From positions 620,001-684,000 of the forward strand of contig NZ_JAQRMY010000002.1 of NCBI RefSeq assembly GCF_028613635.1: DNA of 64,000 nucleotides, in the 5' to 3' direction. Below, in pieces: positions 43,489 through 46,268 of this stretch. The notes under the pieces are model-generated. The model was not told the DNA's origin and searched no databases. It saw only the letters and a program-made list of their open reading frames with translations. Each line of letters begins with the position of its first letter. Position 1 is the stretch's first letter. The translations under genes were made by a program, and so were the position numbers. The stretch comes from Devosia sp. ZB163. Lineage in GTDB: Bacteria > Pseudomonadota > Alphaproteobacteria > Rhizobiales > Devosiaceae.

Positions 43489-44466
43489 ATGACGATCCTC
43501 AAGGTGCGGCACGTCACCACGTACAGCTACGCCAGGCCGGTGCGTTTCGGTGAGCATCGCATCATGTTCCGCCCGCGCGACTCGCACGACCAGCACCTGC
43601 TGAGCGCCGACATTTCGATTTCGCCGGCGGCGGCAACGCACTGGATCCACGACGTGTTCGGCAATTGCATCACCATCGCCGAGTTCACCGAGCCGTCCGA
43701 CCAGTTGCGCTTCGAGAGCAACATCGTCCTCGACCATACGCCCGAGATGGTCCCGCGGTTCCGCACCGATGAGCGGGCCAAGCACTGGCCCTTCGAGTAC
43801 GACCCGGATGCGCTGCCCGATATCGAGCCCTACCTGAGGCCGCACCATCCCGCCCCCGAGGTCGAGGCCTTCGCGCGAAAGTTCACGCGATCGGGTCTGG
43901 AGACCGAAACCGGGCACCTGCTCATGACCATGACGCGGGGGATCCGCGAGTGCCTTCGCTACAACCGGCGGACGGACCCGGGCACGCAGTCGCCCATCGA
44001 GACCCTGACGACACGCACCGGCACCTGCCGCGACTATGCGCTGCTGATGATCGAAGCCTGCCGGGCCCTCGGCCTCGCCGCGCGATTCGTCTCCGGCTAC
44101 ATCTACGTGCCGTCCCGGGACACGGGTACGACCCTGCGCGGCGGCGGCGCGACGCACGCCTGGGTGCAGGTCTATATTCCGGGCGCCGGCTGGGTGGAGT
44201 TCGATCCGACCAACGGCCTTGTCGGCAGCAAGGACCTCATCCGCGTCGCCGTTGCGCGCGAGCCGCGGCAGGCCAAGCCGCTGAGCGGCAGCTTCATCGG
44301 CGACCGGGCCGACTACCGCAGCATGACCGTGCAGGTGAACGTCACGGCCGAAGCCGGACACCGGGCACCCGCAGCGGTCGCAGCAGCAGGGCGCCGGCTG
44401 CGCGAGGCGACAGCCACGCAGATCGAGAACTCCCGCACCGTCACCGGCCAGGTCATGGATCGATAG
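43489..44466 (+). CDS. Transglutaminase-like cysteine protease fold protein 2
   Basis: 325 residues. Bact_transglu_N region (VRHVTTYSYARPVRFGEHR), then the core triad: Cys in TRTGTCRDYALLM, His in GATHAWVQVYIPG, Asp in WVEFDPTNGL. Predicted cytoplasmic as no signal is seen. A pair of such genes in divergent orientation is common in alphaproteobacteria. Its 3' end adjoins the tRNA-derived direct repeat. Confidence 0.88.
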   Translation: MTILKVRHVTTYSYARPVRFGEHRIMFRPRDSHDQHLLSADISISPAAATHWIHDVFGNCITIAEFTEPSDQLRFESNIVLDHTPEMVPRFRTDERAKHWPFEYDPDALPDIEPYLRPHHPAPEVEAFARKFTRSGLETETGHLLMTMTRGIRECLRYNRRTDPGTQSPIETLTTRTGTCRDYALLMIEACRALGLAARFVSGYIYVPSRDTGTTLRGGGATHAWVQVYIPGAGWVEFDPTNGLVGSKDLIRVAVAREPRQAKPLSGSFIGDRADYRSMTVQVNVTAEAGHRAPAAVAAAGRRLREATATQIENSRTVTGQVMDR

Positions 44467-44472
44467 GAAGGG

Positions 44473-44498
44473 GAGATTGGCGCGCCCAAGGGGAATCG
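44473..44498. repeat. Direct repeat (att-like) copy at distal end of mini-element
   Basis: 26 bp identical to 46054-46079, i.e. the 3' end of tRNA-Glu(CTC) plus 5 flanking bases; allowing one mismatch it extends to 44468. It begins 7 bp after the transglutaminase stop codon. Confidence 0.85.
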
Positions 44499-44760
44499 CA
44501 TGATCCTGCTGTTGCCTGCGGCAAGTGATAAAGTGCATCTACGTCGTCGCTATTTGCTGACGGGTGCGACTTTGGGAACACGCCCTTCGGTCCAACCAGA
44601 AACTAGAAGTTATGCATGTAGTGAAGGTCGCACTGCTGTCGCAGATAAACTGAGATCGCGTTGCAGTGGCCGCACGCTTGCGTCCAGCCGGCTGCTGCGA
44701 AAGATGGCGGGCCACAAAACCTCGATATGGCGTCCCATGGAGTCCCTGGTGCGGCTGGGC
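44499..44760. other. Non-coding part of the mini-element
   Basis: 262 bp with no convincing gene on either strand. Composition is visibly more AT-rich than in the neighbouring chromosome. A short open frame at 44500-44766 has no recognisable domain. Confidence 0.5.
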
Positions 44761-45909
44761 TCATGAACGATTGCCGGCGCCCTGGCGAGCTTCATCCCTG
44801 TTGTCGCTGAGGTCAGGACGCGTGCGGACTATGGTCATCGACGACACCCTAACAAGGAAGGAGGTCCGCAAGGACCGGAAGAAACCGCGCAAATCCAGCG
44901 CCGCGCGAATGTGTTGAGGCGGTGGCGCGCTGACCGTTGGTGCCGCCTCTGGCTCAGCCAAAGGCTGAGGCCGTTCAAAATAGCCTAGCCGTTCCATCTC
45001 CTTAATATCCCTCAAGTCGTCGGCGTAAAGCGCGCGCGAGAGTTTGCGCGCTTCTGGCGATTCGATGCTTTGAGCGATCTCCAACTCGTGCAGTCGGGCC
45101 CAGTTTGTCATCGGCACCGGCAGCATGTGAAGGATCTGGACCGAGAGCCATGCGGCATCGATTGCAGCGGCCACTCCAACGATGCCCTTCGTGATTAGGG
45201 GGTCGATAGTCGGATTGCTCCAAACGAAGACGTAAATCGTTATTCGAGCCCAAACGATGAGCACCAGGATTGAAGCGCCAAAGGCGTACCAAAAATACCC
45301 CGATGCCCTAACGAACAGGCCAAACCAGCTGGACCATATTAGCTCTGGCTGAAGTCGAGTGTAGTACGGTGATGGCGGTTCTGCAGGAAAGTACGCGGAG
45401 TGGAGAAACGGATGCAGTTCGGGAGGGTAATATGCCCTCGCTAGGCCGCTTATTGCCATCCCGAGTTGGTAAACGTTCAGGGCGCGCGGAAGAAGTGATA
45501 CCCCGATCATAGCAATGATAAGGACCGACACCTCCCGAAGCCCGGGCGTTTTGGCTAGGGAAACACCCTCAATGCTGACGGTTAGCTCGATTGAGAAGCT
45601 TGCCAACAAGAGGTAGGCCGTTAGCAGGAGGCTCACCAAAGACCACCGCCTTGATGTCTGCAGGATTTCGCTACGCTGTGCTGCTAGCTTTTCCAGGAGT
45701 GCGATGCCGTCGAGCTCGGGGTCAATCTCCTTCAGTCGCCTTATGTCTTCGCTGATCAGCGATCCGGGAACCCGAAACACTGTCGGAAAGTTGTCAGCGT
45801 TCCGACGGCGATACCGGCTACGGTAAGCAGCGCGCGCAACTGCTCGCCGAATGGGAAACAGTAGGCCTTGAGTATTCGGTTTCGATCCCATCGCCGAAAA
45901 ATCTCGCAT
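44761..45909 (-). CDS. Unrecognised multi-pass membrane protein
   Basis: About 382 residues if started at ATG 45909 (AAGGCG upstream); an in-frame ATG at 46050 would add an unlikely basic leader crossing the island edge. Four hydrophobic segments: WSLVSLLLTAYLLLASFSIE, VSVLIIAMIGVSLLP, WYAFGASILVLIVW and KGIVGVAAAIDAAWLSVQIL. The N- and C-termini are polar and probably cytoplasmic. Codon use includes many more A/T-ending codons than its neighbours, a sign of transfer. No family is recognised. Confidence 0.6.
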   Translation of the reverse strand: MRDFSAMGSKPNTQGLLFPIRRAVARAAYRSRYRRRNADNFPTVFRVPGSLISEDIRRLKEIDPELDGIALLEKLAAQRSEILQTSRRWSLVSLLLTAYLLLASFSIELTVSIEGVSLAKTPGLREVSVLIIAMIGVSLLPRALNVYQLGMAISGLARAYYPPELHPFLHSAYFPAEPPSPYYTRLQPELIWSSWFGLFVRASGYFWYAFGASILVLIVWARITIYVFVWSNPTIDPLITKGIVGVAAAIDAAWLSVQILHMLPVPMTNWARLHELEIAQSIESPEARKLSRALYADDLRDIKEMERLGYFERPQPLAEPEAAPTVSAPPPQHIRAALDLRGFFRSLRTSFLVRVSSMTIVRTRPDLSDNRDEARQGAGNRS

Positions 45910-46053
45910 GCCGGAGCGCCTTGCAAGAGGCGCCGACGCCTGTCCACATGTGCAGAGGTGAAGGCGACCGGCGGGACGGGCAGCGTTGCCACGCGAGCTA
46001 GGCAGATGGCCACGACGAGACGCTACGCTCCACCAAAACCGGATTTCCAAGGA

Positions 46054-46079
46054 GAGATTGGCGCGCCCAAGGGGAATCG
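46054..46079. repeat. Direct repeat (att-like) copy overlapping tRNA-Glu(CTC) 3' end
   Basis: Identical to 44473-44498. It covers the last 21 nt of the tRNA (46059-46079), including CCA and the 3' half of the T-arm, plus 5 bases outside. Confidence 0.85.
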
Positions 46080-46133
46080 AACCCCTGTTCCCGCCGTGAG
46101 AGGGCGGTGTCCTGACCGCTAGACGATGGGCGC
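46059..46133 (-). tRNA. tRNA-Glu (anticodon CTC)
   Basis: 75 nt. Acceptor GCGCCCA/TGGGCGC, anticodon stem CCGCC/GGCGG around loop CTCTCAC, giving anticodon CTC. T-arm GGGG-TTCGATT-CCCC. CCA is encoded at the 3' end (46059-46061). The gene is intact despite the adjoining element. Confidence 0.95.
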
Positions 46134-46193: not shown

Positions 46194-46268
46194 TGGCGCG
46201 CCCTAGGGGAGTCGAACCCCTCTCTGCACCGTGAAAGGGTGCCGTCCTAACCGATAGACGAAGGGCGC
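46194..46268 (-). tRNA. tRNA-Glu (anticodon TTC)
   Basis: 75 nt, CCA encoded (46194-46196). Acceptor GCGCCCT/AGGGCGC, anticodon loop CTTTCAC giving TTC, T-arm GGGG-TTCGACT-CCCC. It lies 60 bp upstream of tRNA-Glu(CTC) in the same direction. Confidence 0.96.

Follow-up and report, generated by a model that had tools for sequence, protein, structure and literature searches.

Positions 44473-46079 of the window (i.e., the whole 64-kb stretch of Devosia sp. ZB163 DNA analysed here) very probably constitute a small non-autonomous genomic island, or the relic of one, located at a tRNA-Glu(CTC) gene. In the scenario that we favor, a tyrosine integrase would have recombined a short core of tRNA-Glu(CTC), spanning part of its T-loop and its 3' end, with the corresponding core carried by the element; this integration would have left the tRNA whole and generated a 26-31 bp copy at the far end. 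The integrase would then have been lost, or would have acted from another element.

Putative attachment-site repeats and target tRNA

The element is bounded by two repeats resembling attachment sites, neither of which was assigned a strand. The distal, attR-like repeat (44473-44498) is an exact 26-bp copy, in direct orientation, of the proximal, attL-like repeat (46054-46079), and comprises the last 21 bases of tRNA-Glu(CTC) followed by 5 downstream bases, just as the initial annotation had described it. The copies lie 1,581 bp apart from start to start, in keeping with the spacing of ~1.58 kb first given, and extend to 31 bp (44468-44498 and 46049-46079) when one mismatch is allowed. ARAGORN predicts a complete target gene, tRNA-Glu(CTC) (46059-46133, minus strand), which ends in an encoded CCA; its intactness agrees with the earlier remark that tyrosine integrases leave the tRNAs they use whole. 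A second gene, tRNA-Glu(TTC), is located just upstream in tandem (46194-46268, minus strand, ARAGORN). Identity between the repeats stops inside the T-loop, after 21 bp of tRNA. Allowing up to 3 mismatches, the 26-mer was found at two places in the whole 4.59-Mb genome (10 contigs) and the reversed 26-mer, used as a control, at none; copies scattered over many tRNA-free places, which had been put forward as an argument against integration, are not what this genome holds. No inverted pairs of at least 14 nt were found at the element ends. We infer from these features that the repeat was generated by integration.

A transglutaminase-like gene (Bact_transglu_N and Transglut_core domains; 43492-44466, plus strand, start predicted from the Pfam match) ends 6 bp before the distal repeat. 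We sought an exact empty junction in congeners for which the 3' portion of the transglutaminase gene could be aligned on the same contig as tRNA-Glu. None of the four genomes concerned (G002, G012, G013 and G015) displays such a junction; other DNA is found there. In G012 and G015, the transglutaminase gene is followed by genes for metabolism and transport spanning ~10 kb (ORFs named by reading), then by the tRNA or a fragment of it, while G002 and G013 carry other genes after it, including a RidA-family gene (identified with Pfam for the G002 copy). An enolase-superfamily gene occupies the transglutaminase-tRNA interval of G001. The arrangement seen in the window is thus not common to all relatives, a case that the initial annotation had named as contrary to its reading: none of the 18 congeners has the cargo protein, and in the relatives read the neighbouring genes enclose different DNA. 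A purine-rich flank of the distal repeat, which resembles the sequence downstream of tRNA-Glu in a few congeners, was considered as a sign of old chromosomal sequence and dropped. Since the proximal copy shares this flank and at least 5 other congeners lack it, the two sides of the element cannot be distinguished by it.

The variability of the transglutaminase-tRNA interval among congeners indicates that large deletions and replacements occur at this locus, which favors a rival origin in which non-integrase recombination or deletion duplicated part of the 3' end of tRNA-Glu and the cargo is older accessory DNA. We hold this origin to be very unlikely: a breakpoint in the T-loop and a copy ending just past CCA reproduce the geometry of tRNA-targeting integrases, and the direct orientation of the repeat, the low GC content of the interior and the use of this tRNA as a hotspot (see below) fit integration better.

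Composition and gene content

The DNA between the repeats (44499-46053, 1,555 bp) has a GC content of 57.7%, against a window mean of 66.1% (sd 2.2). None of the 1,186 sliding windows of equal size, taken in 50-bp steps inside the 64-kb window and excluding those overlapping the element, is as low (minimum 59.2%). The cargo ORF likewise exhibits the lowest GC3 of the 38 ORFs compared, 0.63 against 0.71-0.93 for the 37 others, which were picked by script and of which some are probably overlong or in the wrong frame. The lower GC content initially proposed for the element is therefore borne out both by its overall composition and by its third codon positions.

Apart from a single gene, the element consists of two short stretches to which no strand was assigned: an inner end adjoining the distal repeat (44499-44760, 262 bp), in which no gene was recognised, and a leader separating the cargo gene from the 3' end of tRNA-Glu (45910-46053, 144 bp). 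No integrase remnant was detected in either of these gene-free ends, no similarity to the ends of other elements was detected for 44499-44760, and no degraded gene was recognised inside the element. The three interior proteins tested do not match any transposase family, and a scan of four proteins against PHROGs returned 0 families. As the initial annotation had stated, no integrase is encoded inside the element: profile scans gave no match there, and all four matches to PF00589 found in the genome lie elsewhere. Setting aside the Maritalea homologue and two rejected loci, L066 and L067, all discussed below, comparison of the interior with the retrieved loci yielded marginal matches (tblastx E no better than 0.003).

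A cargo gene coding for a putative membrane protein

The cargo gene (44761-45909, minus strand, start codon predicted) would code for a protein of 382 aa with a basic N-terminal part and four hydrophobic stretches (residues ~91-118, 126-144, 211-229 and 235-260, from hydropathy). Its reading frame is open from 46050 (429 codons). The ATG at 45909 was taken as the start, a second ATG at 45891 being possible; similarity to the sole relative begins ~20 residues past the chosen codon. Searches of Pfam, PHROGs, PADLOC and NCBIfam revealed no family match, consistent with the initial description of the cargo as a single membrane protein without recognised family. A sequence search of the PDB returned five weak matches (best E 0.017), which were dismissed as chance. 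A structure model built from two sequences reached a mean pLDDT of 39.2 and a pTM of 0.22, too low for a fold search. Judging from its four hydrophobic stretches, the product is probably an accessory protein of the inner membrane whose two termini lie on the cytoplasmic side. From the kind of neighbourhood in which the gene resides, one might tentatively suggest that it protects against phages or other elements, which we consider a rather doubtful guess.

The gene starts 149 bp past tRNA-Glu, on the same strand, and a consensus scan restricted to sigma-70-like promoters found none in its leader. Taken together, these two observations make read-through plausible, and the cargo gene would possibly be expressed, at least in part, by transcription extending from the tRNA-Glu pair.

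Two of 151 genomes contained the cargo, as did 2 of 136 at the family level, its own genome included in each count; the other genome in the family is that of Maritalea mediterranea (G066). Its own genome was the only positive one (1/398) in a phylum-wide sample. A class-level search matched 3 of 385 genomes, two of which were rejected: the matches at L066 and L067 (tblastn, 41 residues with E 0.019 and 31 residues with E 3e-5, for a 3-kb subject) are as short as those expected by chance among hundreds of genomes, and that of L067 contains an in-stretch stop. No match was detected among 50,697 phage records (tblastn, E 0.01). Further collections were queried with the cargo protein, the Maritalea relative or the alignment of the two: plasmids, phages and viral contigs gave no match, and the Maritalea relative was the only match among genome contigs, these collections possibly leaving out the own or very near genomes.

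The Maritalea mediterranea protein (332 aa) aligns to residues 68-356 of the 429-codon frame with 21% identity; the E value is 2e-9 when the two are compared singly and 6e-10 when computed for one genome. A basic motif that terminates in FPTV and a DI-EM end are common to both proteins, as are four similarly placed hydrophobic stretches. This similarity over ~290 residues bears on the most sceptical view of the locus, according to which the identity of the repeats would be fortuitous or the ORF would not be a gene at all. The lack of any family match for the ORF is in line with such a view, which we nevertheless deem extremely improbable: some 7e-9 copies of the 26-mer would be expected by chance, a figure that already refutes coincidence for the repeat, and the frame resembles a Maritalea protein over this length.

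The Maritalea homologue is part of a ~2.4-kb insert (L116:617-3018). A second Maritalea, G056, lacks this insert and matches its flanks at 92% and 80% identity; a third genome, G061, carries different DNA at this position. The GC content of the homologue is 41%, against 58% and 53% for the flanks. Also encoded by the insert are a RidA-family protein and an HTH/WYL regulator. No direct repeat was seen at its borders, an 11-bp candidate having proved to be an artefact of alignment ends. Since the Maritalea copy lies in an insert missing from G056 and the copy of the window is absent from congeners, the gene is accessory in both genomes. By its sequence and distribution, the cargo represents a rare, undescribed membrane-protein family.

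tRNA-Glu as an integration hotspot

To look at this tRNA beyond the window, the 21 bases that the core shares with tRNA-Glu were searched for with at most one mismatch. In the genus, they occur at 21 places in 16 of 19 genomes, the own genome included: 16 whole tRNA-Glu genes, 4 tRNA fragments and the distal repeat of the window. Across the family, the search gave 35 places, spread over 28 of the 136 genomes; the 21 of the genus were classified by script, those of G024 and G022 were viewed, and the remaining 11 may include further fragments. The four fragments of the genus belong to three other species (G012, G017 twice, and G007), and a PF00589 integrase adjoins three of them (G012, G017:C394 and G007), while the contig of the fourth, G017:C177, has no PF00589 match. 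In G012, the fragment (L038:13298-13353) and its adjoining integrase are situated ~44 kb from a whole tRNA-Glu(CTC) (L039:13278). In G007, the fragment (contig C93, L088:1501-1550) lies beside a 427-aa PF00589 integrase (L088:1687-2970). These data indicate that tRNA-Glu is an integration hotspot in the genus. As a separate observation, the CTC and TTC tRNA-Glu genes of G006 are ~46 kb apart on one contig (L047:4534, L048:5880), and G004 looks alike (L049:5512), which suggests an insertion between the two genes.

The exact 21-mer is also present in three viral contigs (L102, L103 and L104), in none of which ARAGORN detected a tRNA gene. It lies within ~210 and ~130 bp of a PF00589 integrase gene in L103 and L104, respectively; no integrase was evident by eye across the 5.9 kb examined in L102. 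The tRNA-Glu 3'-end copies at L103:900-920 and L104:5647-5667, both beside an integrase gene, are thus probable attP sites.

In the four fragments and, with few mismatches, in the three viral sites, identity to the tRNA reaches the anticodon loop. Their cores would comprise roughly 44-51 bp of tRNA, depending on the method, versus 21 bp in the window, and no element with the T-loop core of the window was seen among the genus fragments and viral sites. Because the core of the window stops in the T-loop while those of its relatives reach the anticodon loop, the element was probably inserted by an integrase of a different type than those seen in relatives, as judged from the repeat.

Candidate integrases and mobility in trans

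The own genome has four PF00589 matches, all located away from the tRNA-Glu locus. Two of them have XerC and XerD as their best-fitting models, with scores that in each case fall somewhat short of the curated cut-off. The third is a DUF6538-type tyrosine integrase (C2:259972; L095:3323-5518), with no tRNA within the 11 kb around it; a small ORF nearby (L095:6354-6920) looks, by eye, like a rolling-circle Rep. The fourth corresponds to integrase frames in two pieces beside tRNA-Arg(CCG) (L096:4029-5208; G000:C1, ~849,000); the match to PF00589 falls below the cut-off and is confined to the C-terminal piece. This locus probably represents a decayed island, at a tRNA other than tRNA-Glu. No integrase of the own genome is assignable to the tRNA-Glu site.

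The initial annotation regarded the segment as a non-autonomous or decayed element, and the repeat, the composition, the restricted content and the absence of an integrase all support this view. Within it, and without excluding the scenario outlined above, the element could be a tiny island kept mobile in trans by borrowing integrases that target tRNA-Glu(CTC). Both attachment sites and the single ORF are intact, no degraded genes having been recognised, and integrase-bearing elements using the same tRNA exist in congeners and phages. However, these candidate helpers use a longer core extending up to the anticodon loop, and beyond Maritalea the cargo was found in no other of the 136 Devosiaceae genomes and in no viral contig searched. 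We therefore see mobility in trans as possible and somewhat unlikely, and decay of the integrase as the more likely history of the island, the sequence by itself being compatible with both. It is less likely still that the element exemplifies a standing class of single-gene, integrase-less cassettes bounded by tRNA cores and moving by means of borrowed phage or island integrases. If such a class did exist, its members would be missed by island finders that require an integrase, and the one found here would carry a new membrane-protein family.

Comparison with known elements

No description of this locus was found in the titles or abstract openings of open-licence literature. The locus provides a very small and clean case of integrase-less DNA at a repeatedly used tRNA site, whose cargo would be overlooked by integrase-anchored searches, and it points to an undescribed membrane-protein family that, in both genomes, sits in DNA missing from the relatives compared. 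The element exhibits the geometry of a tRNA island, the tRNA being whole and its 3' end recurring as a direct repeat on the far side of the insert. It has neither the terminal inverted repeats nor the transposase of an insertion sequence or transposon, nor any recognisable phage gene that would relate it to prophages or phage satellites.

Among integrated elements, cis-mobilizable elements (CIMEs) are defined, in PMC5704250, as having lost their integration and transfer genes while keeping attL and attR. Like them, the element of the window retains both att-like repeats and has no integrase or transfer gene, whereas it is much smaller, with one gene, and our data revealed no related ICE or IME sharing its core. 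It thus fits the CIME definition in what is kept and what is missing, any mobility or descent from a conjugative element being hypothetical.

Integrases of the anticodon-loop and T-loop types have both been described (PMC1762012 and PMC2647930). An example of the latter is found in mycobacteriophage Ms6, for which PMC1762012 reports a 26-base core in tRNA-Ala and a T-loop integrase. The core of the window is also of 26 bp and covers the 3' end of a tRNA together with part of the T-loop; however, that of Ms6 contains the whole T-loop while that of the window begins inside it, in another tRNA and without an integrase. Prophage 05 of Pseudomonas fluorescens Pf-5 spans 2.6 kb between 84-bp repeats, according to PMC2647930, and is similarly a kilobase-size remnant between direct repeats. 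It still has an integrase, in truncated form, and a tail gene, whereas the element of the window has no recognised phage gene. Finally, PMC12595487 reports helper-dependent islands with a tyrosine integrase downstream of tmRNA or tRNA genes. These islands share with the element direct repeats downstream of an RNA gene, an accessory cargo and the absence of transfer genes, but encode their own integrase and AlpA, unlike the element studied here. Set beside these systems, the element is ordinary in kind, and is notable for its small size and its orphan cargo family.
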